A stretch of DNA of 64,000 nt, taken from Isoetes taiwanensis. Lineage: Eukaryota > Streptophyta > Lycopodiopsida > Isoetales > Isoetaceae. The first letter of the stretch is position 1. Every line of letters starts with the position of its first letter. The DNA lies in NCBI GenBank assembly GCA_021234155.1, contig JAJEKV010000003.1:20010386-20074385 (forward strand). Reading direction: 5' to 3'. The notes below the pieces were generated by a model, which worked only from the letters and a program-made list of their open reading frames with translations, did not search any database and was not told where the DNA came from. The position numbers were made by a program, and so were the translations under genes. Shown piece after piece: positions 4,441-37,017 of the stretch.

Positions 4441-4922
4441 CTAATGCCTCCCTTTTTTTGAAAGGCTTGCTGGAGTCTTGGGAGACAATACAGACCTTAT
4501 TTCGTATTGATCTTGTTGTATGTCATCAGTTGAGTGCCCCTTGTTGGTGGATACCTGTGGAAAATAATCTTCCACTTTGTGCCTCAGTTCATCCATTAAC
4601 TCAACGGCGATGCAGGTTAGCAGGAATCTTGGCAGTTGCGTCATGGTATGATTCTGGCCAGTTAGCGTCATGGCAAATCTTTCAAACAAAATTCTTATTG
4701 TCTCGATGTGATAGACCTATTTGGCAAAAGGTTGCTAGTACTCTGCCATTGGTTGCTCCAGAGGCTATTGAAGGATGCATGTGGGTTTCCCACCAAAGTG
4801 TTCACGAGCATAGGCTTGTGAACTCTGTGTATAGGCTGCTTGACAATGGTGATATCCTTCCGCCATCCACTAAATGGTCCCTTTAGCTCTCACCTCTTTG
4901 TTGGAGACGTATGTGGACTTGG
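4441..4922 (+). pseudogene. LINE ORF2 C-terminal part, 5' of element A
   Basis: The open frame 4458-4886 and its continuation through an in-frame TAG at 4884 lead to the codons TGG ACT TGG at 4914-4922, where element A begins. Skipping element A and one copy of its TTGG target duplication, the same frame resumes at 13218 in a reverse-transcriptase zinc-binding domain (WDKLFHPKEVVFWW). The stretch before the junction (VNSVYRLLDNGDILPPSTKW) has the form of the segment that precedes this domain in plant LINEs. The upstream reverse transcriptase of this copy is absent, consistent with 5' truncation. Confidence 0.65.
4919..4922. repeat. Target-site duplication of element A, left
   Basis: TTGG here and at 13214-13217 flank the inverted repeats of element A. 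Removing the element with one copy restores the LINE reading frame across the junction. Confidence 0.85.
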
Positions 4923-5334
4923 AACAAAGTTTAAAATGAAACGCACTTATTTGCTGCAAACACACTTCAAAAGGAATCTTTGAAAGATTCCCTAAGATTC
5001 CCTTAAAAAAGTCCTTTTTTAAGATTTTTTTGTGACAGGTGTGACAATTTAAGTAATTTAGGTACCATTTTTGAGGGGTTGATTGAACATAACTTTCATG
5101 CAAAAATTTTAAATAGCAATTTTCATCCTCCTAAACTAGAACAAAAAATAATTACTTTTATAGTGTAGCAAAAAAGGGGCAATAAAAAAATAGCAAGGGT
5201 AGTAGAGTGACAAAGAAGTGATATATTCATGATTGTGAAAATTGTACAAAATTATGAACAAAATTGTCAAAAATATAGGACATTTTGACAAACACTCATC
5301 ACCTGCACTTTCTGTTCTTTACATGTTCGAGTCA
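4923..5334. repeat. Left terminal region of element A
   Basis: The terminal inverted repeat is followed by a second, directly repeated copy of the subterminal motif (GAAACGCACTT near 4938, AAACACACTT near 4958), then AAAGGAATCTTTGAAAGATT. The same roughly 390-bp layout is found at the left end of element C (26343-26740), which shows that A and C belong to one family. It is non-coding, between the transposon end and the stop codon of the transposase gene. Confidence 0.8.
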
Positions 5335-8328
5335 TCAGACAAACTTACATTTTGCAGCAAGATCAGGATGCATCTCATCGTCCGACTCATTTAATCCCTG
5401 ATCACTTGAGCCTTCATCCTCAGCTTCACTCTCAAAACTGGATGTACTCGAACGATCTTCTTCCTCACTGTCTACAAGTGAGTCTTCATCATCATCTTTT
5501 TTTGCCACCTTTCTAGGTTGTTTGTCTAATCCACATGCCGACTGTTTTTACCATCTCCAAAGTATAACTCCCACTGAAAGCATTGGCAGCATTCGTTCTC
5601 ATCCAGTGCACTTTTAATTGAGTGGGAATTCCATCCTCTCTTGTTACCTCCAGTACTTTAGCTAGCCAGAATGGCTTCCCAGATTCATCATTATCAGCTG
5701 GGACAGCTATGAGCATTCCTTTCTGAATCTCTGAGACTGAACCAGATACTCGAGCAACTTGTTGTGCTGTGCATCTGGGGCCAGTGTACATGACTCTGTC
5801 ATCTTCATCTGAGCTAGCCAATATCTCTACATGTTCCTCTTGATTCTCAACTTGCACAGGGAGAGTTTGCCTAGATGGCCAGTTGAATGTGGCGGTCTTC
5901 GACCTTGTAATGAAGCTTGCAACATGTCACGCGTTCTTGAAAAAAAACTGAGGCCACCATAAAGCATCGCCTCCCCAAAGTGGTTAGAGCACGACTGAAT
6001 ACTTGTCTCAATAAAATCCAATGATTTGTTTGAGTCAAATGCTCTTCCCTCTTTTTTACTCTTTGTGATTTCTTTCAAGCTTTTTAGAGGCATTTGCTCT
6101 GCAGAGAGCATGGAACTAGTATTGGGGATGGTGCGAATGAATTGAATACTGCTGGCTGGTCGCCATTTGCAAGGATGTGGCATATTTCTTTCCTTGTAAG
6201 ATGGCCTTGCCATCTACAAGTGAAATTTTGATCGATCTTTGAAATGTAATGTTTCTCAAGGGCTCAATAGCACAGTGACCCAGTTGATCTCTCCGAAAAA
6301 TCCATTCCTTGAAATCATAAGTTTCTTCTAATAACTCGATGTCTGGACGAGGATTGTAGGAATCTTGGATTACCTCAATCATTCTTTGGTAGGTCGAGTT
6401 TTTTTTCGAAAGCAAGACGTTTAGAGAACCTCTTTGAACATCTGATCAATTTGATCGTGTGTATGACCAACAAGCAGGAAACCAATCTTCACCTTCTTGA
6501 AGATTTGTTTCTCAACTAGCATAGCACAGTAAGCGAACAAGGCCCGATTCTTATTTTCTCTTGTCGTGTTGTCTAGCTGAAGATATAGAACCGGTGGTAT
6601 ATGTTCTAGATTGGAAAGAAGCTTAGTCAAGATTGTGATAGTGAGATTTGGATCAGCATGAATGTTTGGATAGTTCAAAAATACCTTGCAAGATAGTTTT
6701 CCATTAAATACCATAGCACCAACAACATGCAGGTGTATGAAATCTTCTTCAGCAGCATCCTTAGGCACATTGACAAAATGTGGTAGGGTGGTCTTCTTCT
6801 GGTCCATTCCATCAATAACCACCGATATGTAGTTGAGTGGTTGCTCCAATGCTTTCTTCCTATGTTTTGTCAATTTTCTCCTTTCTAAAGATTGTTGTTC
6901 TCTGTGCTTGTTCAGTTTCTCTTTCAATGCATCTGAAATGAAAACATGTTTAGGAAAGAACCTACTTTTAAGTAGAACTAGGCAAGAACACGTCCTGGAA
7001 GCTTACTTTTAGTGTGAAGTGTCCTTGCATTTTTTGTCTCGAGCTTTTAATTCAGAGCATGTAGCACAAACAGACATCCGGTGCTTTCTAGGAATGGACA
7101 CGCGAGAAAACTCTTTTTTCCAGAGCACAGTGAAGTAAGAGTAGCAGACATGGCGTTCTCCAGCCTCAACACACATGTCCTTATAATTATCGTAGACTTC
7201 ACGTTTCGTGAAGTTGTCACTCAAGTGGTACATGGGGCTGTTAGGGAGTTTTCATAAGACTCCTTAAAGAAACCTTCCATCCAGAAACACATTGAAGGGC
7301 ATGAATTCGGATATACCTCCCCGAATGGCGGTAGTCATTAATGCCGGATTCTTGTCAAGCCTTTTCTTTCAGCGGTCAAGTTAGATACGCTGCCTAAAGC
7401 ATGAATCAATTTGAAGGCCGTTTGGCCGGGGGCGGTGTGGCCACCACGTGTAAGTAAACCTTTCACCATAATCTGGCCTAATATTGAAGGCTAAGTAGCC
7501 CCTTTGGTCTAGCAGAGTCATTGAACTGTAACTATCACGAATCAACCTCAATTCCTTTAGTCCAATCTTAAGCAAACAACGTTGAGAACAACAGTGCTTT
7601 GTATGTGTTGCCCTCAAGTGAGCCTCGTCCATGAGTTTCTTTCTTCTAACGGTTGTACATGCTTTCTTGTGTAAGTTACGCTTAAGATTCTTACTTGCAG
7701 GGGCTTTGAATTCGAACATGGAGTCTTGTGGCTTTGGTAGGTCCTCGTATGAGAGATCAACATGAGGTGTTTCTTCGTCTAAGAGATCAACATGAGGTGT
7801 ACTTGTAGACGCTGAGAGGTTTGGTGTGGGCAAGTCCTGGGGGGAGGTGCTTTCCCTGTCTCTGGGAAAAAGTAATCGAGGTTGGTGACGTAGTTGACCA
7901 GCTCCTGACGTGTCGTAGAACACAGGAGTTGCGTGTCGCTGACTGCTCCCACTTGTTGTAGTACCATTTAGCGAAATGGATGGAGTTGGCGTGATTTGCC
8001 TCCGGGGATTTAGCCTACGGTGGACTATGGGCGACGTGCTAAAATGAAGTGGGGTAGGTAGTCTGACCTCTCTAACCTGTGGTGGAGTAAAACGCATTGG
8101 TGGGGGCAAACGACGTTCAGGAGCTGGGTGTGGTGGAGTAAATTGAACTGGTGGTGGAAGCCGAGGTGGTCGTGCTGGAGTAAACTCAACAGAGCTGGGG
8201 ATTTGAATATCGGAGGCAGAATTTTCGAGGCTACTTCCAGGTGTCAGTTGAGGAGGTGTGAATGTCATTGCAGGAGGAAGCCTGCGAACAGGAGTTGGAG
8301 GCTCTGCAGTTCTTTTTTCTCGAGCCAT
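5335..8328 (-). CDS. DDE-type transposase of element A (DUF7869-like)
   Basis: Multi-segment gene read leftward from ATG 8328. (1) Residues 1 to ~190 are Pro/Thr-rich with repeated RLPPPxxFTPP units. (2) Residues ~230-300 carry a Cys motif CCSQRC and a conserved helical segment. (3) 7233-7009 has the motif YHLSDNFTKREVYDNYKD and ends in a CATCSELK zinc-type pair. (4) 6927-6421 is the catalytic core: VVIDGMDQ (first Asp near 6812), LYLQLDNTTRENKN (second Asp near 6572) and VGHTHDQIDQMF near 6465. (5) 6415-5860 is a helical tail. (6) 5800-5560 is a Tudor/BAH-like module (KGMLIAVPADN, FWLAKVLEV). (7) The acidic C-terminus ends at TGA 5337. Layout and motifs match DUF7869-type transposases. At least one intron (about 7008-6928) and small frame breaks separate the pieces, so integrity is uncertain. 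It should cut and integrate at the AACAA ends. Confidence 0.75.
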
Positions 8329-8717
8329 ACTCAGAAAGTTAGCGTCACACTGTATAAATTTATACGACAGAAGAGCAGACGGTAAAAGTTTACACAGGGA
8401 TGGTATAAGGTTATACAGAGAAGGCAAACTTGAAGCGGCAGACTGTATAAATTTATACAGAGATGGTATAAATTTATACGGAGGAGGGCAACATAGAAAA
8501 GAAACGGTATAAATTTATACAAAAACTCACAGACAGTTGTATTGAAAACTTTATGGAGAAGCGCTATACGAAACGGCACTTAGCAGAGGTACTTAAGCCC
8601 GGCGCCGGCCACCCTATTTTCTATATACGCAGCTCGTTGTCGAAGGCGCTCGCGGTGCGGCTTATATACCCCCCCTTATTTGCTCTCTAGAACGTCTATA
8701 CGCGAGTCCATACTGTC
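8329..8717. promoter_or_regulatory. Divergent promoter of element A with palindromes
   Basis: A 389-bp gap separates the transposase ATG (8328, minus) from the methyltransferase ATG (8718, plus). It holds full or degenerate palindromes of the GGTATAAATTTATACC type starting at 8351, 8381, 8402, 8444, 8465 and 8506. Several spacings are close to 21 or 42 bp, that is two or four helical turns. TATA-like TATATA stretches lie near 8620 and 8663, the second about 50 bp before the plus-strand ATG. The arrangement suggests that both genes are controlled through the same sites. I infer autoregulation by an element-encoded protein; this is not shown by sequence alone. Confidence 0.6.
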
Positions 8718-10468
8718 ATGGCCACGTAAGTCTACTATCCGTACTGTTTTAGTTTCTCTTTTGTTTTAATCTGTTAGAGTGTAAGCACCCACGGTATAAA
8801 TTTATACCGATATGGTTCTGGAGCGGTATAAATTTGTACCGCTCGTGCGGTATAAATTTATACCGTTCCAGAACCATTTCGGAATCTTGGTGTCTAGTGC
8901 TTAAAGAATGGTCCCGAATCTTAATATTTTCGTAATATTGTTGTGTTTTAAGCTTAAATGACATAAATAAAGTGTTAATTTGGTGTGGATTTTATGCCCT
9001 TTTAGCCTCTTTTTTTACTGTTTTTCTGTTTCAAAAAGTCGAAAAAGGTTCTGTTTCTTGTATAAAAATGGTTTTTTTTACGCTTTTTCCAGCCCTAAGA
9101 TCAAGTTTATACACAGAGGCCAATCATCAAAGGCTGCACCACCAGAGCCACAGACTTATGAACTAAAAGAACAGACTTGGTACGTCCACAGGGGCGCAAG
9201 AGAGAGCAAACCCACTGAGGCGTACCTTTACTTGTGCCATCAATCAGGGAAGGGCAAGTACAAGTCTGATGATTATTACCCTGCTGGCGAAATTATAAGC
9301 CTTGTTACTACAGAGAACGATGACGAAGTTTTGATGAAGTGCAATCATGACAAGGGGGAGGTCTACTATGTTCTGAATACTAGAATGCTTAGAATAAGCA
9401 TGTGCAAGCCCAAAGACGTGTATGATTACATTGCGGACAATTACAAGAACGGCTTTGTAAGTTATTCTTAGTTGCTTTCGTGTATAAATTTATACCGTCA
9501 TTCTCTTAACTTAACCGCATGACGGGGACATAGTAGAAATTTTGATGTCAGTAGTGCTGTGTGAAGAAAAGGTGTTGGTCAAGGGTCTATGGTTACCCCG
9601 TACTATCGAAGAGGAAGAGAAGGACGAGGAAGTAGTAGAAGAAGAGGAAGAGGAGGAACCAATGGTAACAAAGGGAAAGGGTAGGAAGCATTCCACGGTA
9701 GTAGATACAATGACCTCCTACCAAAAAAAACTAGAACCACAAAGTCCTTGACTATAGAGGAGTCAGCAGAAGCTCTTCAGAAGGCTCCTGGAGCAGATAT
9801 TGTTGTGAAGCCCGCAGATAAGTCAAGTGCTATTCTAAAACGGGTTAATGAAACTAAACTGCTCAAACAAACTATTTCTTTGACATTGAGCACTATAAAA
9901 AGGCCGCCTAAGAATGAAGATGGGGTCGAGTGCTTGGTCCGAGGAAGGTGACGCTTGCACATGTGGCTATACTGAAGCAAAGAATGAGAAGAAATCCTCA
10001 TGCCCATGTGTCGCCACTAGTTGTAATGGTGGACAGGAGTCAGTGATTATAAAAAGGCTGACTTTGAAGATTACACATAATTATGTACTTGGAGGCACAC
10101 ATAGTTATAAAGCACGGAAAGAACTTTCAAAGGAAGAAACCCGTAATGAAGTTTGGAAGACCGTAGAAGCACATATCTACGTGGGAGTCACAGACGAAGA
10201 AGCAAAGGTCATTGCCGTGAGTCATAATCTCGACAACGACTTCAGACTAAAAATGAGCCTGATAGACAAGATCCGCTTCATGCACAGGGAATACATAGAG
10301 TTCAAACAAATGTATGGGGAGGACTTCAAAAAACAAAAAAACAAACTCCAAGAACTTCGAGAAGCTTGTGTCACAGAGTGCTGCCTCAGCTATGATTCAG
10401 ACAAGAAGCCCATAATGGCTGTGAAGCAGTACGACAATCACTTCCAGCTTGCTTTCAGAGATGGTCAA
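8718..10468 (+). CDS. ParB-methyltransferase gene of A, N-terminal and ParB part
   Basis: Exon 1 is only 8 nt (8718-8725, ATGGCCAC, then GTAAGT). Joining it to the acceptor at 9116 gives an open frame beginning MATGQSSKAAPPEPQTYE. Exon 2 (9117-9456) encodes a ~100-residue module (TWYVHRGARESK, AYLYLCHQSGKGKY, YNYIADNY-like end) shared with element B. A Glu-rich linker (from 9545) follows. The ParB-like domain (about 9950-10320) has NPHAHVSPLVVMVDRSQ, then THNYVLGGTHSYKARKEL and VGVTDEEAKVIAVSHN. Frame breaks occur at an A8 tract near 9730, near 9950 and at a TGA near 10050. This copy is therefore probably inactive unless these are assembly errors. The junction between exon 2 and the acidic segment could not be placed. 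The ParB N-fold is known in bacteria for chromosome partition and also fused to methyltransferases. Confidence 0.7.
8793..8864. repeat. Three palindromes in first intron of A
   Basis: Copies of GGTATAAATTTATACC start at 8793, 8825 (one mismatch) and 8849, each extended by an outer C/G pair. They lie in the first intron of the plus-strand gene, immediately after its 8-nt first exon. Confidence 0.9.
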
Positions 10469-10575
10469 GTAAGTAAAAGCTTTAATTTAGTCCTCTGTAG
10501 TATGATTAGCTTAGCTTAATTTGTGTATTAACACCGAACATTGTATATTAGTACCAACTAAGGAAGACCAGTCAA

Positions 10576-10788
10576 GGTATAAATTTATACCGTGACTGGT
10601 CGCGGTATAAATTTATACCGTGCCTGGTCGCGGTATAAATTTATACCCTGGCTAGTCACGGTATAAATTTATACCCTGAGCAGGCACGGTATAAATTTAT
10701 ACCGCATACCTTGCACGGTATAAATTTATACCGTGACTAGCCAGGGTATAAATTTATACCGCGACCAGGCACGGTATAAATTTATACC
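10576..10788. repeat. Array of eight 16-bp palindromes, 28-bp spacing
   Basis: Eight perfect copies of GGTATAAATTTATACC start at 10576, 10604, 10632, 10660, 10688, 10717, 10745 and 10773. The spacing is 28 bp (once 29), with 12-13 bp spacers such as GTGACTGGTCGC. Two spacers recur in inverted orientation, so 10604-10675 and 10717-10788 are exact reverse complements (72-bp arms, 41 bp apart). The array fills the intron between the ParB exon and the next exon (intron 10469-10870). It resembles an iteron or operator array rather than a random satellite. Confidence 0.95.
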
Positions 10789-10870
10789 GTGCCTGGTCTT
10801 GCGTGTGCAATTAGACAGTATACTTTGTACGCCATTCAACACTAAACTACTTGTGTTCGATCATTCACAG

Positions 10871-12735
10871 GTGTGGGATCTTCAAGAAAGAATATTTTGC
10901 ATGTTCGAAGATGGTGAGCTGAAAGAACAATCCAGCTCTGCCTGAAAAAAACCAAAAAAAGGTGGTGAAGCAAAACAAAAAAACATGAGCATTGTACCCT
11001 GGACGCAGCTACAGGGTTTAAAAAGGAAGGAAATTTTTGTAAGACTATTAGAAAAAGTTGTGGCCAAGGAATTTACTCTAGACGAAATGGCCAAAGAAGC
11101 TAAGACGTAAGCAACATTTCCCATGTCGTCTTCTTTTTTTCCTAGTTTTGTCTGACATTTTTTCCCTCTGCAGTCAGAAAGACATTGTCACCTGCCAGGC
11201 AGAGTTAATGAAGCAACTAAACCTGGAGGCCTGGGAGGAGTGCAAGGCTTTGTATCCATCTTCTACTACAGATAGTATTATCAGAGAGCACGCTGTTAAC
11301 TTTAGTGGCTGGGTAAGTTTTTCAGAAAATACGTTTTGTTTTCGTGCCTTTGTCTCACAGTTTTCTTACAGAACAAGAAGAAAGGGCTACTGACAGGATT
11401 TTTAAAACTGGTTCGTAGGGCTAAGGAGGAGAGGCAGAGACTAAAGGCACTTGAGCAGGGAAAAGAAGTCGGCACAAGCAGTTTTGACACCAGTTATGAA
11501 CGGTTCACAACATTCGGTCAAGACTGCTTGTACAGGGTTGTTCATGGGGATTGCAAGAGGCTGGGAACTCTTTTGGACAAGCAAAATTATACATTGTGTA
11601 TTGCAGACATTCCATACGGGTTCAAAATTAAGGATAGCTCTTTCAACGAGGAAGCCTTCATGCACGTGCAAGTCCGTGCTTTTTTGGACGGCCTGAAGGA
11701 AATCACGACATCTGAAAACTGGAGGGTCATCATTTTTCATTCCGACCTGCAGACGATGTCGGTGCTTAAGCCAATGGGAGCTGTCTGTAACGCGGGCTTT
11801 GAAAACTGCGTATGGTAAGATTTGAATTTATTGCTTTTCTATTTACTTAACACCACGGTATAAATTTATACCTCAGTCGCCTCGTGGTATAAATTTATAC
11901 AGCAAGGCAACCTTCGTATAAATTTATACGGCACGGCAATGTGGTATAAGTTTATACAGCAAGGCAATGGTGGTATAAATTTATACTGCCACACCACTGA
12001 ACTAACTTATTTTGTTCGTTTTCTTTCTACCAATTTTTAATTGCTTTTTTGTTTGGCAGGCTAAAAACAAATGTCAAAGGACATGGTGGTGGTCCGCTTA
12101 GTAAAAGTGCTTTGAACATTTCCATATAGGTTTTACTGGTAGCGGACACCAAAAAACCATGGTTCATTTCAATACGCATAAAATGAGAAGAGTCCACCCC
12201 GCAACGCCTTCGGTTTCCTACTGTTGCGCAAAAAATTAAGAGACCCACGGCGACAAGGCTGTGGTATCTCATTACCGGAAGCCCGCGGCTAATTAATAAC
12301 TTAATAAATGGTTTTTCGCCGGGAGACTGGATTCTAGATGCATTTTCTCGCTCGGGCACCACGGTGATTTCGCCCTTAGGGCGCAATGTTGTCTCCGTCA
12401 ACATAGACCCGGACAAAATAAGTTTCGTCAGGACAAGGATAAGCTCTTGTGAATCCTTTCCTGATGAAAACGAGGAACTGGGAGCAAAGAACGGTGCTGG
12501 CGATGTTAAAGGCACATACACAGAAATCCAGCCTCCACTTACGGGAAGAAGAGATGAGGAGGTGGAGTTTGTCGACCTGGAGCCTGTGGTGCCTAAGCCC
12601 GAGAAACAGCCTGTACCTGTGCCATTGGAATCAGAAGCAGGCGTCTCTGCTATCATACCATCACAAGAGTCAGATCCTAAGGGGTACGAGAGTCCTGTGG
12701 ACTGGGAAGACCCACCTCCTCCACCAGTTGTATAA
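10871..12735 (+). CDS. ParB-methyltransferase gene of A, DNA methyltransferase part
   Basis: Exons are 10871-11106, 11174-11312, 11372-11814 and 12060-12735, all with GT/AG borders and in matching phase with element B. The first two encode helical linkers (VWDLQERIF; LMKQLNLEAWEECKALYP). The third carries DCLYRVVHGDC and LCIADIPYGFKIK, a (D/N)PPY-type motif IV at 11606-11620. The last carries SPRLINNLINGFSPGDWILD, then DAFSRSGTT (12337-12363) and VVSVNIDPDK, the AdoMet-binding motif I/II region. Motif IV before motif I is the order of beta-class amino-methyltransferases (N6-adenine or N4-cytosine). In-frame TAG (12127) and TGA (12184) and a TGA near 10943 break this copy. The TAA stop (12733-12735) lies within a palindrome. 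Which base is modified cannot be told. Confidence 0.8.
11857..11986. repeat. Array of five palindromes in last intron of A
   Basis: Five full or slightly degenerate copies of the GGTATAAATTTATACC palindrome start at about 11857, 11886, 11915, 11943 and 11972, again at 28-29 bp intervals. They lie within intron 11815-12059, between the motif IV and motif I exons. Spacers share AGCAAGGCAA or close variants. Confidence 0.9.
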
Positions 12736-12744
12736 ATTTATACA
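12729..12744. repeat. Palindrome overlapping the methyltransferase stop codon
   Basis: TGTATAAATTTATACA starts in the last Val codon and includes the TAA stop of the methyltransferase gene. Element C has the same arrangement at 36460-36475. Confidence 0.85.
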
Positions 12745-13213
12745 GTCAAGATTACAAACTAATTTTCATTGTAAACTATGTGCTAAGAAATATAACATAT
12801 TTTGATGATGATTTTTAATCTGAAAGCTTTGTCTCTTCAACAATGCTTAATTAGAACAACTCTTTTTTTCTCCATGATTTCACACTCTTTGTCTTTCCTA
12901 TGTTTAATTTTCTTAGTACTTATATTAAGCTTGCAAAAAGACAAACTATATTTCCTTCTATTTTCAACAATAAATACTTATTCAGTTTTTAAATTTAATG
13001 TCTCCCTCCTCAAACCAAGCTTTTTTTTCTTTGCCCTTTTTAAAAAATGAAAAGGCTTCAAAAATGTTGCTTTTTTGGGGGTATTTCGAATGCTAATTGC
13101 TTAACAATCTATTTTGCTCCCTATTTTGTCTGGTTTTTTCAAGTTTCCAATTTTTATAAAGGAATCTTTCAAACGCACTTCTTAAATAAGTGCGTTTCAT
13201 TTTAAACCTTGTT
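12745..13213. repeat. Right terminal region of element A
   Basis: Non-coding AT-rich DNA of about 470 bp ending in the inverted repeat. The last 50 bp hold AAACGCACTT and AAGTGCGTTT as an inverted pair with a short loop (about 13171-13198). This is unlike the left end, where the same motif is directly repeated. The right end of element C (36960-37017) is nearly identical. Confidence 0.75.
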
Positions 13214-13217
13214 TTGG
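13214..13217. repeat. Target-site duplication of element A, right
   Basis: TTGG, matching 4919-4922. Confidence 0.85.
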
Positions 13218-20245: not shown

Positions 20246-20573
20246 GGATAAACACCCCTGCTTGCCCCTTACCACTGTTGGGCAAATTCCGGGGTAGAGA
20301 AGGTTTGTTCCGGTTGAAACTAAGAATTTCCGGTTGAGTTAGCGCATTGCAGGAAAAATTCCGGTAGATTTTTATACATATTTGTATAAGAGTAATACAA
20401 ATTTCCGATTGGGAACTGAAAATATTTGGCTATTTGATGAGAGAGTAGGAAAATTTCCGATTGGGTTTAAAAACTTTGCCCAACACTGCCCCTTACAGCA
20501 GATAAACGGGCTCGCCCCTCCGGGCTCGCCCATTTATCTGCTGTAAGGGGCTCGCAGGGGTGTTTATTCCCTT
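20246..20573. repeat. Foldback hairpin element with nested MITE, copy 1
   Basis: GGGATAAACACCCCTGC at the left pairs with GCAGGGGTGTTTATTCCC at the right, and the inner parts pair as GCAGATAAACGGGC / GCCCATTTATCTGC. A MITE-like insertion (20277-20484) sits in the left arm. Related hairpins lie near 19870-19945. The same structure is present in copy 2 (about 59645-59965). Confidence 0.55.
20277..20484. mobile_element. Small MITE-like element, copy 1
   Basis: About 208 bp bounded by inverted GTTGGGCAAA and TTTGCCCAAC, flanked by the direct repeat ACT. The inside has several TTCCGGTTG/TTCCGATTGGG motifs and no coding capacity. The family is not identified. Confidence 0.5.
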
Positions 20574-26342: not shown

Positions 26343-26808
26343 AACAAAGTTTAAATTGAAACGCACGAATTTGCTCCAAACGCACTTCAAAAGGAATCTT
26401 TAAAAGATTCCCTAAAATTCCCCAAAAAAGGTCCATTTTCACGATCTATTTGTGACAAGCGTGACATTTTGGACATTTTAGGTACCCTTTTTGAGGGGGT
26501 AATTGAACTTAGCTTACATGCGAAATTGTTTATTGCCCCGTTTTGGCCCCCTAGTTTGGTATGAAAAATACTAACAAATCTAAATACAATAAAAAATTTG
26601 ACATTGAAACAAATAGCAATTCCACTAGAGCAACAAAAGCATATAATATTCAAAGTTTTTAAAACCATTACAAATTTTTAAACAAAATTGTAAAAAATGT
26701 AATACATTTGACATTCTGAACAAAGTTATATTTTGCGGCTTTAATTTCCCCCACATTTGTTGGACGATATGAATTTGAAGCATAGGTGAGCTCAAGAGGC
26801 ATATAAAA

Positions 26809-27181
26809 ATATAAATTTATACCACGTGAGCTCAAGCAGTGCACGGAGAGACAACTCGAGCGGTATAAATTTATACCGCCTGTAAGCTCAAGCGGTATAA
26901 ATTTATACCATCACCCCACAGGAAAAGAGCGGGAGCAGTATAAATTTATACCGACATTTTTTTACACGGGAAGCCACGATATAAATTTATACCGCGAGCT
27001 CTCTTTAGAAACGTTTTGCTACAACTCTAGTATGCTATAACACACAAAAAAATCATTTATATAAAACTATCTTCATGGTTATAACGTGACATTGCATAGA
27101 TATAACATGCCATGGGTTGGTTAAAACAAGGCAAAATATGTTCTACATCTCGTTTTCAGCTTGACGGTATAAATCTATACC
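26809..27181. repeat. A-type palindromes at left of element C
   Basis: Copies of the GGTATAAATTTATACC palindrome, some with a mismatch, start at 26809, 26862, 26894, 26937, 26979 and 27166. They retain the A-family sequence although the genes are gone. Confidence 0.9.
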
Positions 27182-28488
27182 GAGACTAGGAAATGTTTTT
27201 GTGAAGGAAGCTTTGGGATTTCTATATTCTAACGAATGCAGGAGTTTGTTGATGCTGGAGTTTCTTAGAGCATGAGTTTCTTCTGAAAGTGGAAGAAAAA
27301 AACATTTAGGGTTTTGTTGATGCGGCCAGTTTAGGGTTCGTGCATATGCATATGAAGGACGGAGGCGCTGGATCAGAATGAGAGATGGAGTAGCAAAGTA
27401 ATGTTGCATGCTCCTAGATCTTCTCATAGCTACTAAACGTTCCTTTTCATGCCTAGAAATCTTGCATCAGTTTATACGAGTTTTGCATCTTGGCTCTGTT
27501 TTGGCACAACCCTGAGTTTAGTTCCTGCCCATTCATGGATCTCTTGTTATATAGAGAAGAAATAACATTAGAATAGCCGAAGATTCACAAAAGGCCACTG
27601 GAAATTTGAATAGTTGGAACGCTGCGCAGCCATGTGTTAAGGTGCTGCTCTACGGATCAATGATGCTTCAGGAATAGGAGGAGCTTTTTCTTGTTTTTAT
27701 GCTGCTCATTTTGGAGACTATTGCTAGTATATTCTGCGGGGCTGAGTTCACATTTTGGCAGTCGCTGGAGAAGAGCTCTTCTAAGACAACTATCCACCAT
27801 TGCCTGAGAAGAGCCTTTTTCTACTTAAAGGTAAAAAAAAGTCGGATGTTTTTTTTGTAGTGCACTGTCCTCTGAAGTTTAGGCATATGCAGAACCTGTA
27901 GAAGTAGCAGTTGTGGAAGTAGCTCCTGTTGAAGCAGCTGTGGAAGGTGCACAAGCTCCTGTTGAAGCACTTGTCCATTGAAGAGCCTGCCCAAGTGACA
28001 CCAAAGGAAAACGGTGCAGCAGTTGCTGCGTTTTTGTATTGGGTCCCATAGACCGATTGGTCTCCGTGGACGATAAAAGTACCTTCCTTCCTTCCTTCCT
28101 CTGCTCCTAGACCTTTGTCTCCCTATGCTAGGGTATGTCTCTTAAACTTGCTCTACATATGTCTAGATTAAGATCATTTTGTTTCTATACTTGCACCAAA
28201 TCTGTCTAGATTAAGATCATTTTGAATCTCATTAACCAACTTTGGTATGCAGTATCCTGAGTTGAAACCCCCATCTTCGCCAACTCCTTCCAGGCCTTGC
28301 TGAGATGAGAACTTTGCTCGAGGTAAATTTTTACAAAGTTCTCATCTCAGCTCTGCTCCATTAGTTCTTGCAGTAGGAGAGAGATTCCATTGAGAAATGG
28401 ATCAACAAAAAATAGCTTTAACTTTTCAGGAGAAAGACCTTGGCAGCGTAAGTGAGATTGGCTTTTTGAAGATTCGAGAAGGTTCCAC
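27182..28488. other. Internal region of element C, unassigned
   Basis: Contains a short stretch resembling an Ala/Val/Glu/Pro-rich coding repeat (27877-28045, for example EPVEVAVVEVAPVEAAVE), possibly a captured gene fragment. It also holds a perfect 18-bp hairpin (28299-28316 with 28334-28351). Nothing else is recognised. Confidence 0.4.
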
Positions 28489-28492
28489 TTAT
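28489..28492. repeat. Target-site duplication of element B, left
   Basis: TTAT, matched at 35696-35699. Confidence 0.75.
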
Positions 28493-28960
28493 AACAAGAT
28501 TGCATTTGAAACGGGAGCAAATCATTGAAACGGGAGCAAAAGGAATATTCCTTAAAGATTTCCTATTTTTTTTTTTTGCAAAAAATGGCTAAAAATGAGG
28601 TGGTAAAAAAAAAAGGGGGCAGAAAAATGTATTTTGACCCCCCAAAATCACCAATCTTTTTCTCCAAACAGAGAATTGTCTATGTGAAAGTGACACTTTT
28701 TTTTGGAATTATAATTTGCCTGAATTGTCTTTTTGGAGTAAACCTCTAATTTAAGAGAACACAAATTTTGACCAAAAATCGAAGTGAAGTTTACAGCAGA
28801 AATAGTAGTATTTTCAAAATTGAAGATAAAATCTTCATATTCACATTCAAAATTTATTTCTTTTTTCCTAAGACTCAGTTATGTGCAAAAGTGTGAGGAG
28901 TGATAAGAGAGGGATCCAAGACATCTTAAATTGCTTTCGTTTATGCCATCATCGTCGGTT

Positions 28961-31245
28961 TCACTTCTTTTCAGCATCACTTGAGGAAGTGCTTGAGTTA
29001 TCTTCCTCATCACTATCAACCGACGGTGAAGCATTCCCAACCTCTTCTTCATCTTCTTCTTCGTAGTTACAAGCCTTCTTAATCAAGTTGATTGTTCTCT
29101 GGCGTAAACGATTGTCTGATTTCAATTTGAAATCATAGCACAGAATACTCACTTGTCGTAAGTCTAGCTCATCCGCATCCAACTTTCTTGGCTTTTTGCC
29201 CTTTCCTTGACTTCTCATTTCTAGCTCATACCTACCTTCAAAAGCATTTTCTGAACGTGTAGCAAGCCAATGAATCTTGAGTTTAGTCACCATGCCTTCC
29301 TCTTTGATTGTGTCAAGTACTTTGGCTATCCAAAAAGGTCTCCCCTTGTCATCCTCCTCAGTCGGAAGAGCAATCAACATACCTTTAGTAATTTCTGTGA
29401 CATTACCTGTAGGCTCATTCCTGCGTCTTGGACCGAGGTACATGACCCGGTCCTCATCTTCTGTCTTTGCGGTTTTGCTCTTTGCGCAGCAATGCTTTGA
29501 CTTTTGCACGGTTACGTGGTTGGTGGGAAGCATTAGGCCACTTAAAAGGTTCTTGCAACTGCCTCAGAGCTAGGTTCTGAATCACAGTCTTTTGTTCTAG
29601 AAAGAAGCCTCTCCACCACATTTGATCTTGTTCAGTGAAGTACTTAAAACCCGTGGAAATTCCATTTTCAATGGATTTCAAGGAAGTGACCTTCTCTCAG
29701 CTGCTTGTTGGTCACGGTGTCTACCAAGCTTCTGTTGCACAATGTCTGTTGAAGGAAGCAGGTCAAAACAATTACATGATGCAAGTACGAGAATGAAGAA
29801 CTTAAACTTACTTTTTTCGAGCTCTGTCCTTGCAGTTTCTTTTTACTCTTGATTACAAGACACGTTGAGCACCACGGACATTACAGTGTCTTGAGGAATT
29901 TTTACAAGGCCAAATTCAGTTTTCCACAATCTAGTGAAATGTGAATAAGAGATATGCTGAGATTGACTGCATGTCTCTTTGTATTCTTTGAAAACATCTT
30001 TTTTTGTGATGTTATCTGTCAAGTGATACATATTGTTGTTTGGCAATTTTTCACACGTTTCTCTGAAGTATTTCTCCATCCATGCCACAACAGCTAGGGC
30101 ATGCATTGTTACAATTCTTCCAGGCCCACAGTGGTCATCAATGCAAGGGTTTTTGTCTAATCTTTTTATGTATTGAGACATTCGGAGGAACCCAGCGGTG
30201 GCGACCATGAAGCATTTTTGACACACTTCTTGGCGATTGATATAGTGCAAGAAGTTGTGCCATCGGTCTTACATGATAAGCCAAGTAGGCATTCTGTTCT
30301 GAAATTGTCATAGAATTGTAATGGTCTCTAATTGCACGAAGTTTAGCCATGTTGAATTTGCTAATGCATCCCAACGAACAGCATGTAGCTCTGAGAATTT
30401 TTCTCATTTTCTGCTCGTCCATCAGATTTCTTCTTCTTATGGAAGAACATGCTCTCAAGCTGAAATCTACTTTGAATTTCTTAGAAGATTGGTTAGAGAA
30501 CATATAATCTCGTTGTTCCTTGTCAGGGTCTTCATCCTCTGATGAGAGTTCCACTCTAGGAGTGACCTCCTCTTCTCTTAGTGGTGTGTTTCTGGAGGAA
30601 AATAAACCACGTGACACAGTACCCAGAAAATTCGGAGGGACAGTGTTAAATGTAGGTGATTGGCCATAGGATGATGTTGCTTGATTGTGTTGGCTAGGTG
30701 TCGTGTCAAACATTGCTCTTATTGATGTTTGAAATTCTGCAAACCCGTGTGTCACAACATTTATGGGAGGAGGTGGGGACCCTACATTGCCTACAACAGC
30801 GTCTTCATTTGTGCACAAGTCATGGTGAGAAAAGTCATGGAGAATTTCACATTCTTGTGGGCGTGTTGCAGACCTTGTACTTGTTCCTGCTACAAATAGT
30901 GGGGGCAGTCTTTGTCGAGACATCTGTCGTCTTTGCAAAGGCATCTGCGCAGCTTTCGGTGATGGTAAAAAGGAGGTGGTAGCCCTCAGGTATGCAGTGG
31001 AGATGGAACGAAGGGAGAAGGCAACCTACACTTGAAAGGGCTCGGGGAGGGTTGGAAAGGTGGTGGCAGTCTACTATGTGATGGACTTGGAGAATCGTCA
31101 AGGAGTAACAAGGATGTTGTAGAGGCAGGAGATGAGGAATCCTGGGCACCAGGCAAAAACACATGCTCATTGGGCGTTTCCTCTGAAGTAGAGGAACTCG
31201 GTGCCACAAAAGGTGGTGGAAGTCTGTTCTGGATGCGATTAACCA
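28961..31245 (-). pseudogene. Transposase of element B, catalytic core deleted
   Basis: From ATG 31245 the product begins with Pro-rich RLPPPF repeats. After a frame break near 30985 it continues (30944-30138) to the Cys motif CCSLGC and AYHVRP, both aligned with element A. Next come YINRQEVCQKC, KNPCIDDHCGPGRIVTMHAL and YHLTDNITKKDVFKEYKE (30250-29843). A short exon (KLGRHRDQQAAERR) then jumps directly to GISTGFKYFTEQDQMWWRGF, which lies after the catalytic core in A. The roughly 700 bp holding the DGMDQ, LDN and GHTHD motifs are missing. The C-terminal Tudor/BAH-like module (KGMLIALPTE, FWIAKVLD, LKIHWLATRSENAF) and the acidic tail (29533-28961) are intact. It cannot be an active transposase but could still bind DNA or chromatin. 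Confidence 0.75.
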
Positions 31246-31539
31246 TCTTCAAACACTTCAACTAGAAGAGAGACGGAAGCAGCTTTTGCACGTTTGCTAT
31301 TCGAGAATACGAAGTGTCAAGCCAAGGAGAAGTCTGCTATTCCGGAATACAAGTTAGCACACATTTTGAACCAAACGTATTCCGGTATACATAGAAATGA
31401 ACATGTGTCTGAAGTAGACCTTTAAAAAGGAAATTTGTGGCGCTCATTCGTGTATTCCGAATTCGTTGCTCCAGGCGCTCCGATTTAGCGCCTTCAAAAA
31501 CTTCTGCTCGACCTTATTCCGTTTTACATAGCACGCAGC
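31246..31539. promoter_or_regulatory. Divergent promoter of element B with palindromes
   Basis: A 294-bp gap between the two start codons. TATTCCGGAATA-type palindromes, partly degenerate, start at 31298, 31338 and 31378 (40-bp spacing), with weaker copies near 31453 and 31514. Position and spacing regularity parallel the promoter of element A although the palindrome sequence is unrelated. Confidence 0.6.
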
Positions 31540-33231
31540 ATGGAGAGGTAAGGGAAAAAAGTACAATGTACGGGCAGATTCTAGAAATGTGGTTTGGGCG
31601 GAGGCCGAAGTGTATTCCGGAATACACTTTGGCCTTCCGCGCTCAACAAAAGTGTATTCCGGAATACACTTTGGCCTAAAGCGCTAGGCCAAAGTGTATT
31701 CTGGAATACACTTTGGCCTTCAGCTCAAACTACTTTTGCTACAAAAATATTAAATTTAGTGCATTTTTAAGCGCTTTAGCAGTAAAATGTAGATGTTTTT
31801 ATTCCGGAATAGACTTTCTAGTTTACTTTGCTTTAACTAAAACAGTTTGTTACTCGCTTGTTGCAGTCAGGAACATGGGGTCCAAAAACAGAAACAAAAC
31901 ATCAAAATCACCACAAAGAAACGCCCGCCACCAAAAGACCAAGAGACGACTGCGATACAAGTGTACGAGAATTTTCAAACGCAGTGGTACGTGACGAGAG
32001 GTTTCGCAGGAAAGTACAGCAATGTCACTTTCCTGTACGTCTGTCGTAGCCCTGGGCAAAAACGGTACGACGAGTCTGAGTTTCCGTGCATGGGATCCAT
32101 ACAGCACGCGGAGCCAGCAGCTGGGCAGAGCAAACAAGCAAGACTTTCTATTAAGACTTCACAAGGCTACTTTGTTCTTGATGTAGCATTCTTTAAGCTT
32201 TCAAACGTGCATCCTACACGGCTTTACAATTACATTGCCCACTACATAAATAAGCTGCCAATGTCAACAATCATTAGGACGGTTTCAAGCAGCAGAAGTG
32301 AAGCACTGGACTACAGTGCTTCTGAAGTAGAAGAAGGTGGAGATGATGAGGAGGAGGAACCTGGGACTGATGAGGACATTGCAAATTCGGCTGAGTCCGA
32401 ACCTGAAGAACCCCCACCACCACCACCAAAGAAGCAAAGACAAACTGTGGCTGCTAAGGAGCCCAAGAAAAAAAAGACCGCGGTACTTGCCATTGAAGAT
32501 GCACCCCAGGCAACAGGGAAAAAAACAAAGGGGAAGGCCAAGGCCCCAGGGGTTGCAATAAAAGAAAAAAAAATAGACAAGACGGTTGAAAGGATGGAAG
32601 AAATTAATAAAATAAATATGTTCAAGGAGTAATTTATCTTCCTGTCACCTGCATGAAGCTGCCACCTAAGGACGACACAGGAGAGAGACCACTACAGGTG
32701 AGAAACATTTATGCGGATCACGTTAGAAATTTAAAAGACAGGACAAGGAGTAACCCAAATGCACATGTTGCTCCAATAGTTGTTCTTGTCGACAGAAGCC
32801 AGTGCATGGACCCGGCAAATTATGACAGAGAGAATGCAGATCATTACACACATTATGTGCTGGGTGGAAACCATAGCTTCAAAGCTCGGAGGCAACTTTT
32901 TAAAGAAAAAGAAAATCCAAGATACCTTTCCGTCCTCTGTGCAGTGTATTGTGGCCTGACTGATGAAGAGGCGAAAATAGTGGCCAAAACACACAATGCA
33001 GATAATGAGTACAAACTCAAAATGAGTTTTGTAGATAAAATTAGATTCATGCACAGAGAGTACCTAATATTTAAAGAGAAATATGGAGAAGATCTTAAGA
33101 AGCCAGGGCCATCATTGGAGCTTAAGGAGGCGTGCGCAATAGAGTGCTGCCTAAAGTATGATGAAGCAAACAAGAGGCACTCTCTGATCAGCCACGACAA
33201 TTGGTTTCAACTGGCCTTCAGGGATGGCAGG
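31540..33231 (+). pseudogene. ParB-methyltransferase gene of B, N-terminal and ParB part
   Basis: Exon 1 is 8 nt (31540-31547, ATGGAGAG, then GTAAGG), as in element A. Joined to the acceptor at 31866 it reads MESQEHGVQKQKQNIK. Exon 2 (31867-33231) encodes the N-terminal module (QWYVTRGFAGKYSNVTFLYV, RLYNYIAHYI), an acidic and Pro/Lys-rich linker (EEEEPGTDEDIANSAESEPE, PPPPPP), and the ParB-like domain. That domain has NPNAHVAPIVVLVDRSQC, YVLGGNHSFKARRQL (32860-32904), VYCGLTDEEAKIVAKTHNAD and SFVDKIRFMHREY. A single frameshift at about 32628 splits linker and ParB part. The Pro-Ile-Val-Val strand, the Gly-Gly-Asn-His...Ala loop and the Asp-Glu-Glu-Ala...His-Asn helix are what I rely on for the ParB/sulfiredoxin-fold call. 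No database search was possible. Confidence 0.7.
31611..31811. repeat. Palindromes in first intron of B, 42-bp spacing
   Basis: TGTATTCCGGAATACA starts at 31611 and 31653, and a one-mismatch copy at 31695, exactly 42 bp apart. They sit within a longer palindrome that extends through AAAG/CTTT and GGCC/GGCC. A further copy lies at 31800-31811. All are in the intron after the 8-nt first exon. Confidence 0.95.
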
Positions 33232-33242
33232 GTAAGCACATC

Positions 33243-33342
33243 TGTATTCTGGAATAGCCCTCGCACTTTAGTGTCAGGCCAAAGTGTATTCTGGAATACA
33301 CTTTGGCCTTCAGTGCTAGGACAAAGTGTATTCCGGAATACA
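33243..33342. repeat. Palindrome array in intron of B, 42-bp spacing
   Basis: Palindromes of the TGTATTCYGGAATACA type start at 33243, 33285 and 33327, again exactly 42 bp apart. They lie in the intron 33232-33434, which is orthologous to the intron of element A that holds the eight-palindrome array. Isolated copies also occur in the next intron (33714-33729) and the last intron (34455-34468). Confidence 0.95.
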
Positions 33343-33434
33343 CTTTATACACTTCGGCCTTTGTTTCATTTTTATTGTAGCTCATTTCTAAAAGATTTTC
33401 TCCAATGTAACTTACAATATGTTGTTTGCTATAG

Positions 33435-35186
33435 ATATGGGACCTGCAAAATGAAATATTCACAGCATTTGAAAGAGGGGAATTAAAGAGCAAAGGTAAA
33501 GCAGCAGAGAAGAAAAAGGGCACAGACGTGCCAAAAAAAGAAATGACTATCACAGTCTGGAGGGAGATGCAGGGTTTCACGGACACAACAATCTTAGAAA
33601 TGTTACTCCAGAAAGTAGTGGACAAGGAGTTTTCCTTAGAAGAGATGTCAAAAGAACTGCACAAGTAAGCGTTCATGTCTTGTGCTTCATACATTCGGAT
33701 TCCCTATCTGTTTTGTATTCCGGAATAAGTAATGTGCTTCATATTTTCTGTTTGTCAGCCAAAAAAACGTCATTGCATGCCAAACATGCTTGATGGAGCA
33801 GTTAAACGTAGAAACCTGGGAAAGGTGTAAGGAGCTGTACCCTCTGGCAACTTCAGACGAGCGTATTGTACAATATGCTCCTAATTTTGAAGGATGGGTA
33901 TAATGCTTTACCTCTTGGACCTTCTTTTGTGTCAACTGTTTTTACACAACTTAACTTCATTTGCAAATGCAGAACAAGAAGAAAAACAAAGATCTTCCTG
34001 AAGGTTTTATGCACCTGCTAAAGCTTGCTCGTGAGGAAAGAACCTTACCGACAGGAAGGCGGTTGTCGGTTGAACCGTCCGAGTTTGAAAAGTTTACATT
34101 ATTCGATCGGGATAATTTGTTTTCTGTTGTTCAAGGTGATCGCGCACTAAGTTGGTGGAAAGCATTAAGCCCCAATTTTACCCCGATCATTCTTTGATAT
34201 ACCTTTACGGGTTTAAGATCAAGGGCGGCCGTTATGACGACCTACCTTTTAGGAACTCTGAGTTCAATGCCTTTATTGATGGTATAAAACAAATAACAAC
34301 GGCTAAGCATTGGAGGCTGGTGGTGTTCCACTCTAGCATGCAAGCAGGGATGGTGGAAGCGCGAGCTTCAAGAATCATTTTGGATCCCCCGCTCCGGTGG
34401 CTATGAGAATTTGGTCCGTAAGAACTTATTCAAAAATACTTCTGCTTTCTTTTGCTATTCTGGAATAGTAAATTTATTTGTTAATTGCTAGATTGCTAAC
34501 TATACTTCTCTCCTAAAGGTACAAAACTAATATAACTTATCATGCTGGAGGCCCTAGATTGTTAAGCAAAGTGGAATATCTTCATGTGGCCTCTTTGGAG
34601 CTTGACGACAAAAGAACAATGGAGCACTTCAACACGCCCGGATGCTCTGATTTTTCTAATGTGTTAGAGTTTCCAGCCGTGTTTGCGGAAGTCGTAAGAC
34701 CCAAGCTAGCTTGGGGGAGAATTGTCAATCACTATCGAAGCCCCTTAAATTAATCAACCAACTTATTGACATGTTTTCACGTCAAGGATTTGGATACTTG
34801 ATGCTTTCTCGGGCCTGGTACAACCATTACTGCAAGACTTAAAAAGGCGAAACTGTGTAGCAGTGGATGTAGACAAGGAGGCCGTGAATTTCATTAAGAT
34901 GAGATTGGCTGCACTACCTAGCTTACCAGACGAGAATCAAGAGCTAGGTGCCAAATCCTCATCTGACTTTGCCAAAATGACATCGTCCGAAATACAGCCT
35001 TCTTTTACCAGCTCCACAGAGGATGAGGTCACTTTTGCTGAGCTGAAGGAAGTGGCTCTAGTAGTGGAAGCAGAAGACAACACTACAAAGCAAAAAGCTA
35101 AATCACCTGAGAAAGAGAAGCCTGCTAAGGAAGACGTTGCAACTACAAGCACACGCCATGGGGAGGACTACGAAGTTGATCTTTGA
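33435..35186 (+). pseudogene. ParB-methyltransferase gene of B, DNA methyltransferase part
   Basis: Exons are 33435-33664 (IWDLQNEIFTAFERGELK, then KVVDKEFSLEEMSKELH), 33759-33897 (LMEQLNVETWERCKELYP), 33973-34417 and 34519-35186. They align exon by exon with element A. Motif IV is present at 34196-34211 as a DIPYG coding sequence with one extra base that shifts the frame. Motif I, WILDAFSG followed by GTTITARL, is at 34791-34840 with a two-base shift. Downstream VAVDVDKEAVNFIKMRL and the conserved LPDENQELGAK tail are intact to the stop at 35186. Beta-class amino-methyltransferase by motif order; inactive as assembled. Confidence 0.7.
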
Positions 35187-35695
35187 CTCCTTGTGAGAAA
35201 TATTTTTCAGATTGGTATCTTTTAAAACTGATATTAAAATATTTATTGATTTTAATATTATTTATTCCCATCAATTTTCCTATTTCCTTAGTCTTGCTTG
35301 TCTACACTACACAATCAACTGTAAATTTGGCCCTTTTCCACCAACAGCTGACAGATTATTCTAGTGTTATAATTAATTTTGCCTTAAAAAATGATGTATT
35401 TAAAATTTCTAATTCATGTACTATTATTATTTCATTTAAACTAAGATGTTTTTTGTTGTCTTCATTTCATGGATTGCAAAGTCAACTGTAAATTTTGCTC
35501 TTTTAGGCTATGATATTTCATCAAATGTAAATGTACACTTGCTGAGAGGTTAAAAAGCAAGAAAAAAAAATTTTTAAGCTCTCAAAATACTTTGACTCGG
35601 CCAAAAAGTTCATTTCTGGGAGGATGCCATGTTTTTTTGAGGGAATCTTTGAAACGGGAGTTGTGCAACACTCCTGTTTCAAATGCAACCTTGTT

Positions 35696-35699
35696 TTAT
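35696..35699. repeat. Target-site duplication of element B, right
   Basis: TTAT, matching 28489-28492. Confidence 0.75.
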
Positions 35700-36420
35700 A
35701 CAGACATGCGCAAGGAGATTGAGAACGATGTAACTATGTTGTTACTTTCAAAAACTCTAAAGTTACTTAAGGTGTAATAATGGTCTCAATCCTAGTGTAA
35801 ACCTTCATCTCAGCTGTGGCACAATGGTACAATCCAGGACGAGAAGTTTCGCATATGCTAGCCAAAAGGAAGCATGGCCCATCTGCAAAAGTGTTACTGC
35901 CATGTGTTATGTGCTTATTCAAGGTTCTGCAACACTGCAACTGCCAAGGAGTTGGCACTAATTGAAAACGATCACATGTTCTTTTGATTCAAAGTAATAT
36001 GTGTGTTGGGGTTTGTAAGAAAAGGTTAAGGTTCCTTTCTAATAAAAACTACAGAAGATTTAATAGGGTTCTTCCATTGTCGTTTCTTGGTAAGCTCTTT
36101 TTGTCGTCAAGTAAACTTTTTTTGCATGTCTTGATTGTCAATTTGATAATTTTGTGTAAACTTTGGTCTTTCAAGCTTTGATTGTGATTGGATTGACCAA
36201 ATTCGAATTTATCATTAAGTTCTGCAGTTAATTGGTAGCTAGAAAATATTCATATTAAACTTGAAGATTTAATCAAATTCAAGATGTCTTTCACAAGCTC
36301 CAAAAAGTGCTAAATACAATAAGCAGGCTGAAGTACTTCAAATTATCAAACAAATGCATACAGAAGGAATGCATACAGAAGAACGACGCTGGAGACATCA
36401 AGGAAAACAAAATGTCAAGG
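35700..36420. other. Internal region of element C, right of B
   Basis: AT-rich, no recognisable coding content. It joins directly to the methyltransferase-gene remnant at 36424. Confidence 0.4.
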
Positions 36421-36423
36421 TGA

Positions 36424-36515
36424 TGAGAGTCTTGTGGACTGGGTGGACCCACCACCTGTGGTATAAATTTATACCGATGGGTTTTCATTTCAACCTGTCG
36501 GTATAAATTTATACC
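36424..36515 (+). pseudogene. Methyltransferase gene tail and palindromes in C
   Basis: The frame ESLVDWVDPPPVV ends in a TAA that lies inside a perfect GGTATAAATTTATACC palindrome (36460-36475). A second perfect palindrome follows at 36500-36515. The end of the element A gene (ESPVDWEDPPPPPVV, stop at 12733) is the clear counterpart, which shows that C derives from an A-type element by internal deletion. Confidence 0.8.
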
Positions 36516-37017
36516 GCTGCACCTGACTATTTCTTACTTGAAACATTCTCTGCAAATTGGCTGTGACATGCCCTGTTATTTAAAGACCTTATACAGATAG
36601 TGCTATGTAACAACTTTTGGTAACACTATTTAATATGAATACTTACTTCGAATGCTTTCTTCTCTGTTAAAAGTTTAAAGAATTTATTTCTGCTAAACGA
36701 TGTGTTCTGCTACCGTGAGAGTATTCATGCACGCTTTGCAACACAACCTACTTCAATTGCATGTATTTTGGCAATGGAAATTCTATGGCTCTCGTGAAAT
36801 TCTGCTTGACCCCCCTAAATGGCTTCCTTTTTTTTTTGGTCCTATGCTTTTAGAGTATTTCTCTTCAAAAGTGTCGTTTTCATGACGGCTTTGCAAAAAT
36901 CATATCCAAAAAACTTGAATGCCTCTATTTTTTGCTCTTTTTAAAAATTTCCAATTTTTTTGAGGGAATCTTTCAAACGCACTTCTTAAATAAGTGCGTT
37001 TCAATTCAAACATTGTT

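Follow-up and report, generated by a model that had tools for sequence, protein, structure and literature searches.

A plant DNA transposon family pairing a ParB-fold/N6-N4 methyltransferase gene with family-specific palindrome arrays, a candidate system for marking its own DNA, in Isoetes taiwanensis

The present analysis concerns a 64,000-nucleotide stretch of the Isoetes taiwanensis genome (the window; assembly GCA_021234155.1, contig JAJEKV010000003.1, forward-strand positions 20,010,386 to 20,074,385) and, within it, element A, a DNA transposon that carries a DUF7869 transposase gene and, divergently, a seven-exon gene joining a ParB-fold domain to a methyltransferase (MTase) domain of the N6-adenine/N4-cytosine type. 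A second family, represented by element B, has the same two genes, and the noncoding parts of both families contain arrays of a palindrome peculiar to each. We see about an even chance that these elements constitute an autonomous plant DNA transposon family with its own sequence-directed DNA-marking enzyme, which would read the family's own palindrome and counter silencing.

The initial annotation had given element A defined ends, a target site duplication (TSD), a transposase gene and an intron-containing gene opposite to it, all of which were recovered; the palindrome arrays and two further elements, B and A', lie outside it. The 30-bp inverted ends at 4923 (AACAAAGTTTAAAATGAAACGCACTTATTT) and 13213 (AACAAGGTTTAAAATGAAACGCACTTATTT as reverse complement) differ at a single position and are flanked on both sides by TTGG. 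When the flanks are fused at a single TTGG, the junction is crossed by a frame open for 32 codons, which, judged by eye, resembles a long interspersed nuclear element (reverse transcriptase/zf-RVT-like). Since another frame is likewise open across the junction, the first lends weak support to TTGG as the target site. The transposase core matches PF25273 (DUF7869) at 7.3e-39 and 133.8 bits (cut-off 26), and 97 proteins matched this core at E values up to 1e-8, including some from Adiantum, Riccia and Branchiostoma. The C-terminal part of the transposase (51% identity between A and B over 89 amino acids) yielded nothing significant in a Pfam scan of 5513-5926. As a separate observation, this part gives the impression of a small chromatin-reader-type domain.

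Genome searches covered an assembly of 1,658,258,908 bases in 1110 contigs. The first 233 bases of A returned 1201 first-look candidates, 40 of which were scored, all at 98-100% identity. Among 20 fetched copies, one of them at a contig end, the 3' end was recognised (at most 5 mismatches in 30) in 13; identical 4-bp TSDs flank 11 of these, the duplication being one base off in L013 and without a match in L018, and all three elements in the window (A, B and a relative of A termed A') have them as well. Transposase, ParB and MTase stretches occur together in 15 of the 20. With the ParB exon of B as query, there were 3347 first-look candidates, and all 150 that were scored had E <1e-100 and 78-100% identity (42 with a stop, 108 without).

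The ParB-MTase gene of window A is a pseudogene with 11 stops in the spliced frame, the final stop included, and the gene was therefore assessed on other copies, which support it. Exon borders, refined on an alignment of A with 13 of the 20 copies, are conserved in most of those 13. An open frame runs through exons 1-3 in L011 (443 amino acids) and through exons 4-7 in L019 (498) and L020 (501), while none of the fetched A copies is open over all exons. The B-like copy L049 has a 568-amino-acid open frame covering the ParB part, the frame being read over that part only. Pfam found no significant match, and hence no family, for the N-terminal domain encoded at 9093-9456, which is 26% identical between A and B. 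It had been conceivable that the ParB and MTase parts belong to unrelated genes; the copies and the second family instead present them as one gene beside the DUF7869 transposase.

Purifying selection is evident in both domains. The ratio of nonsynonymous to synonymous substitution rates (dN/dS) is 0.054 for the ParB exon of L011 versus L017 (dS 0.78), and over exons 4-7 it is 0.076 for L019-L020 (dS 0.56), 0.078 for L019-L014 and 0.185 for L020-L014 (dS 0.055, with a stop in L014); comparison of A with B is saturated. In a set of 20 exons encoding B-like ParB, made up of window B plus 19 of the 20 fetched copies (L044 omitted) and picked for the absence of stops, the median is 0.057 and the range 0.019-0.36, over the 75 of 190 pairs left usable after exclusion for synonymous saturation or dS <=0.05. 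Differences at codon positions 1, 2 and 3 of these exons number 3724, 2477 and 17130. These substitution patterns indicate that both domains stayed functional through much of the spread of the elements. That the gene might be cargo, captured from the host and without a role in the element, or else an assembly artefact or contamination, would fit the single relative returned by a protein database search, but with introns, two families, own ends and TSDs, the copy number given above and dN/dS mostly about 0.05-0.08, we regard this as extremely improbable; chance motif matches, contamination and a passenger gene were rejected on these same grounds.

The single relative, P0001 of Adiantum nelumboides, is a predicted product without the ParB part, which aligns with 16% of the query at 38% identity. 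It shares the linker FQLAFRDG and has DAPYGF as its methyltransferase motif, which suggests that the family extends to ferns. Searched against the I. taiwanensis genome, P0001 gave at most 47% identity and the three fetched loci were A-like, so no third family was found. Two scans of viral contigs found no relative, and tblastn against phages gave a single match, at the E limit of 10.

With respect to the MTase domain, PF01555 (N6_N4_Mtase) matches exons 4-7 of L019 (57.7 bits, 2.1e-15) and L020 (58.1 bits, 1.6e-15) well above its cut-off of 26.7. The broken window exons gave weak Pfam matches for this gene; window B reaches 27.4 bits when read through with X, above the cut-off, and window A has 19.1 bits, below it. 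L019 also matches phrog_67 (3.7e-22) and, in the PDB, CcrM (1.6e-10), MboIIA (5.4e-9) and RsrI (2.5e-7). In beta-class enzymes motif IV precedes motif I, the two being DPPY-like and DxFxGxGTT, and this is the order in copies of both families, in which D[I/L]PYGF lies in exon 6 and DAFSGSGTT in exon 7 (DAFSGSGTT in L019 and L020, as against DAFSRSGTT in window A). Thus the proposal of a beta-class enzyme in 11372-12735 is borne out by related copies, and the motifs stand where they had been annotated. A match to UPF0020 (2.6e-6 in L020, above its cut-off; 2.8e-4 in L019), as well as the D[I/L]PY form of motif IV, could instead mean that the domain acts on RNA or is a dead enzyme serving as a binding module. 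However, the top matches are PF01555 and DNA adenine MTases, both motifs are conserved in the two families and purifying selection is strong, all of which makes this reading very improbable.

The ParB-like domain, proposed for 9950-10320, rests on structure more than on sequence matches, which are weaker: a model made on a B homologue has the ParB/sulfiredoxin fold, although four of five models were poor. In the model with this fold, residues 137-201 had only low-Z helical matches; a separate AlphaFold prediction from two sequences reached a predicted local distance difference test score (pLDDT) of 35. Sulfiredoxin is the commonest eukaryotic member of the ParB superfamily as described in PMC12704722. 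Searches of PDB sequence profiles with the ParB part returned nothing relevant. NCBIfam TIGR03764 scored 18.9 bits in window B, short of its cut-off of 143.75, with a best E of 1.6e-5 among 26 member sequences. General profile scans, made without a dedicated search, showed no helix-turn-helix or C-terminal dimerisation domain and no ParA partner.

A further feature of the elements is their palindromes. These are 14-bp cores in the frame GTAT-N6-ATAC, the central bases being AAATTT in A (GTATAAATTTATAC) and TCCGGA in B (GTATTCCGGAATAC). At up to 2 mismatches, every one of the 31 A-type sites in the window falls within A or A', and every one of the 10 B-type sites within B; at 3 mismatches, 4 of 38 A-type and 1 of 13 B-type sites fall outside the elements. 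A 12-mer of the palindrome occurs 20 times in A, as compared with a mean of 0.005 in shuffles of A. Each of the 13 A copies with a 3' end has 9-25 exact palindromes. Of 14 aligned rows, 12 were used for the noncoding regions (A plus 11 copies; L012 and L017 were omitted), and these contain 13-24 exact sites, located upstream of the transposase, in introns 1, 2, 3 and 6 and at the stop codon, and aligned palindromes differ between copies by 0.38 per 14 bases versus 1.51 in other noncoding windows (77% versus 33% identical). Spacing is mostly 28-32 bp in A and about 42 bp in B. In window B, palindromes occupy introns 1, 3, 4 and 6 as well as the region upstream of the transposase, and L049 has its main arrays in introns 1 and 4. 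A genome-wide count of pairs, made irrespective of whether they lie inside elements, gave 4537 for A (gap 10-30) and 1039 for B (gap 20-40), with none of the reversed pattern for either; in one case, C157, a ParB exon (166511-167119) has a B pair on either side, at 165346 and at 167496. As an observation apart, four repeats with a GACTCG/CGAGTC hairpin (TTTCGACTC...GAGTCGAGAAAGG) at 51399-51799 may be a further element-specific palindrome array.

Based upon these features, the following scheme can be proposed. The second gene would yield one protein consisting of the N-terminal domain, the ParB-fold domain, a linker and the beta-class N6-adenine/N4-cytosine DNA methyltransferase. We infer that this protein would recognise its own family's palindrome, repeated in the noncoding parts of copies, and mark the DNA of its element at these sites. 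Whether through this mark or through protein clustering on the array, the shared promoter and introns could then stay active despite host silencing, and own copies could be distinguished from other DNA. The mark might instead license transposition or do no more than label own DNA. The proposal that the protein reads the palindrome and marks its own DNA follows from the parallel with VANC arrays, described below, together with the fusion of a DNA methyltransferase to a fold that acts on DNA in phages and plasmids. The initial annotation had proposed that a mark of its own might let the element avoid silencing or steer its transposase, and the palindromes give this idea a candidate target. The gene pair and the family-specific arrays suggest such self-marking, and the same outer bases with different cores in A and B would agree with diverged specificity, whichever protein the reader may be. 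A bolder version, which we advance tentatively and with less confidence, is a parS-like self-identity system, in which the ParB-fold/methyltransferase reads the array, writes N6-methyladenine (6mA) or N4-methylcytosine (4mC), thereby shields or activates copies of its own family and keeps apart the rivals A and B, which share one genome, the module being exchanged between copies by recombination.

Two other readings of the palindromes must be weighed. Firstly, they could be sites of the transposase or of a host factor (e.g. insulator or enhancer), with ParB-MTase targeting something else. The connection drawn here between protein and palindrome is an indirect one, and with A and B differing in both proteins, palindrome specificity is assignable to neither. 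Yet the arrays concentrate in ParB-MTase introns in both families, and canonical ParB binds palindromic sites of about 16 bp; we consider this reading unlikely. Secondly, methylation of element DNA could time or license the transposase, much as Dam methylation regulates the Tn5/Tn10 transposase, the palindromes being regulatory or assembly sites. The MTase gene does adjoin the transposase in most fetched copies, palindromes adjoin the transposase promoter, and A', which lacks the genes, retains 8 A-type sites (at most 1 mismatch), as expected if mobility required them in cis. On the other hand, the palindromes nearest the ends of A are about 3.4 kb and 0.5 kb away, with none in the terminal repeats, and the MTase gene has the majority of sites in its own introns; this control of transposition is likewise improbable, to a similar degree.

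Several observations weigh against self-marking itself, in addition to the poor structure models, the selection of stop-free copies and the position-blind counting of palindrome pairs noted above. Pfam scans of window exons and copies found no ParB domain; the PHROG match commonest among 26 ParB sequences (17/26) was phrog_30771, a family without known function, and for 5 of the 26 there is a weak match to an NCBIfam model of an unrelated kind. The GxxR P motif of ParB-CTPase is replaced by GxHS in 25 of the 26, GNHR appearing in L038 only, and since changing this R to A removed nucleotide binding in tested proteins (PMC12704722), action as a cytidine triphosphate (CTP) clamp is doubtful. Motif IV has I or L at its second position rather than the P of DPPY. 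L019 also matches N4-cytosine enzymes, more weakly (PvuII 0.0046), and either adenine or cytosine could thus be the target base. Finally, within A the MTase diverges (dS about 0.55) and the palindrome does not, and array turnover could alone keep the palindromes alike.

The history of the elements appears to be mosaic. A and L014 are 94-99% identical from 4923 to 9456 and 77-90% further on, and L014 and L020 are 83-98% identical up to 9955 and 92-99% further on, so that the transposase half (4923-9456) and the ParB-MTase half (9457-13213) probably recombined between copies and differ in history. In the window, the ends of A' resemble those of A (73% over 372 bases and 85% over 93), and blastn found neither A gene in it beyond a 56-bp remnant of a gene end. 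Element B differs from A in its terminal repeats, terminal AACAA being common to both, and its genes share the order and orientation of those of A with 39-57% identity over the main exons. The DUF7869 core of the window B transposase appears mostly deleted and is present in L049; a few frameshifts break the window B ParB-MTase gene, the ParB exon part at 32629-33231 being open. The features are collected in Table 1.

Table 1. Coordinates of elements, genes and palindromes in the window (TIR, terminal inverted repeat).
Feature	Position	Strand	Details
Element A	4923..13213		Full length, 8291 bp; TIRs AACAA[A/G]GTTTAAAATGAAACGCACTTATTT
5' TSD of A	4919..4922		TTGG
3' TSD of A	13214..13217		TTGG
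Transposase gene of A	5335..8328 (approximate limits)	-	Broken; PF25273 7.3e-39 and 9.2e-5; related to B
Transposase of A, N-terminal part			Proline-rich
Transposase of A, core	6421-7002	-	DUF7869
Transposase of A, C-terminal part	about 5513-5926	-	Conserved
Palindromes, A-type	8352..8520		4 exact; upstream of transposase start codon of A
ParB-MTase gene of A, exon 1	8718..8725	+	
Palindromes, A-type	8794..8863		2 exact; intron 1
ParB-MTase gene of A, exon 2	9093..9456	+	N-terminal domain of no recognised kind
Palindrome, A-type	9482..9495		Intron 2
ParB-MTase gene of A, exon 3	9527..10468	+	Acidic/basic linker; ParB-fold domain (about 9948-10300); helical stretch to FQLAFRDG
Palindromes, A-type	10577..10787		Array of 8, 28-29 bp spacing; intron 3
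ParB-MTase gene of A, exon 4	10871..11106	+	Linker
ParB-MTase gene of A, exon 5	11174..11312	+	Linker
ParB-MTase gene of A, exon 6	11372..11814	+	Methyltransferase motif IV, DIPYG at 11606
Palindromes, A-type	11858..11986		4 exact; intron 6
ParB-MTase gene of A, exon 7	12060..12735	+	Target-recognition-domain-like part; motif I, DAFSRSGTT at 12337; C-terminal tail
Palindrome, A-type	12730..12743		Overlaps stop codon of ParB-MTase gene
Element A'	26343..37017		TSD CATT; relative of A, split by B
Element B	28493..35695		Second family; TIR AACAAG[A/G]TTGCATTTGAAAC[G/A]GGAG; TSD TTAT; nested in A'
Transposase gene of B	28950..31250 (rough limits)	-	
Palindromes, B-type	31337..31812		6 (at most 2 mismatches); upstream of transposase and intron 1
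ParB-MTase gene of B	31540..35186	+	Exons 31540-31547, 31867-33231, 33435-33664, 33759-33897, 33973 onward
Palindromes, B-type	33244..33341		3, 42 bp spacing; intron 3; another at 33715, intron 4

The window holds other repeats as well. Direct repeats about 39 kb apart (16132-21941 and 55529-61036) share blocks of 91-100% identity, an inverted repeat of 51 bp with 98% complementary arms 28 bp apart lies at 61260-61389, and tandem repeats are found at 37683-37857 (57 bp x3) and 15016-15213 (99 bp x2).

Functional 6mA or 4mC in plants is disputed, and either mark would have a natural writer, open to testing, in a plant transposon of high copy number that encodes a conserved DNA methyltransferase of bacterial type and presents an obvious candidate target. 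No plant DNA transposon bearing a ParB-fold/N6-N4 methyltransferase came up in a search of open-licence papers, in agreement with the initial annotation, which knew of no such gene pair. Elements bearing VANC, TET/JBP or DNA methyltransferase (DNMT) genes are already known, and the plant ParB-fold/N6-N4 MTase transposon is new relative to the literature searched. As to the transposase, Sola2 elements, including Sola2-Fanzor elements, also have 4-bp TSDs, but those of Sola2 are described as AT-rich (PMC3627910), whereas the TSDs here sometimes are not, and the likeness to the Sola superfamily is one of TSD length. The Mariner elements PGv and OLpv likewise combine a transposase and a methyltransferase, although the transposase is of Mariner type and the account of them in PMC3627910 mentions neither ParB nor palindrome arrays.

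The closest parallel to the arrays is found in the anti-silencing VANDAL elements of Arabidopsis (see also PMC10398659), DNA transposons with an extra gene, VANC, and with family-specific short motifs in tandem arrays in their own noncoding regions. The VANC-binding arrays of VANDAL21 occupy the same kinds of place as the palindromes of A and B, namely the introns of element genes and the region upstream of the transposase, and VANDAL families differ in motif just as A and B differ (PMC5735166). However, VANDAL elements are of MuDR type (PMC12730594) and those here of DUF7869 type, the VANDAL motif YAGTATTAY is non-palindromic, unlike the 14-bp palindromes of A and B, and VANC is described as a DNA-binding protein that causes loss of DNA methylation and not as an enzyme (PMC5735166). 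A base-modifying enzyme beside a transposase is known from the TET/JBP DNA transposons of fungi, but that enzyme is a dioxygenase acting on 5-methylcytosine (5mC), and the main text of the report contains neither "ParB" nor "adenine" (PMC12730594). Dinoflagellate and charophyte DNMT elements also carry their own DNA methyltransferase, but are retrotransposons whose C5-cytosine enzymes are called host-derived in an abstract without ParB (PMC5890265). If the proposed scheme is correct, transposon counter-silencing would widen from loss of 5mC, as with VANC and TET/JBP, to the writing of another mark. Lastly, ParB-N6_N4_Mtase fusions place the same two domains in one protein on mobile DNA; those surveyed come from phages and prophages, "transpos" being absent from the main text of the survey (PMC12704722), and the elements described here would place such fusions in a eukaryotic element.

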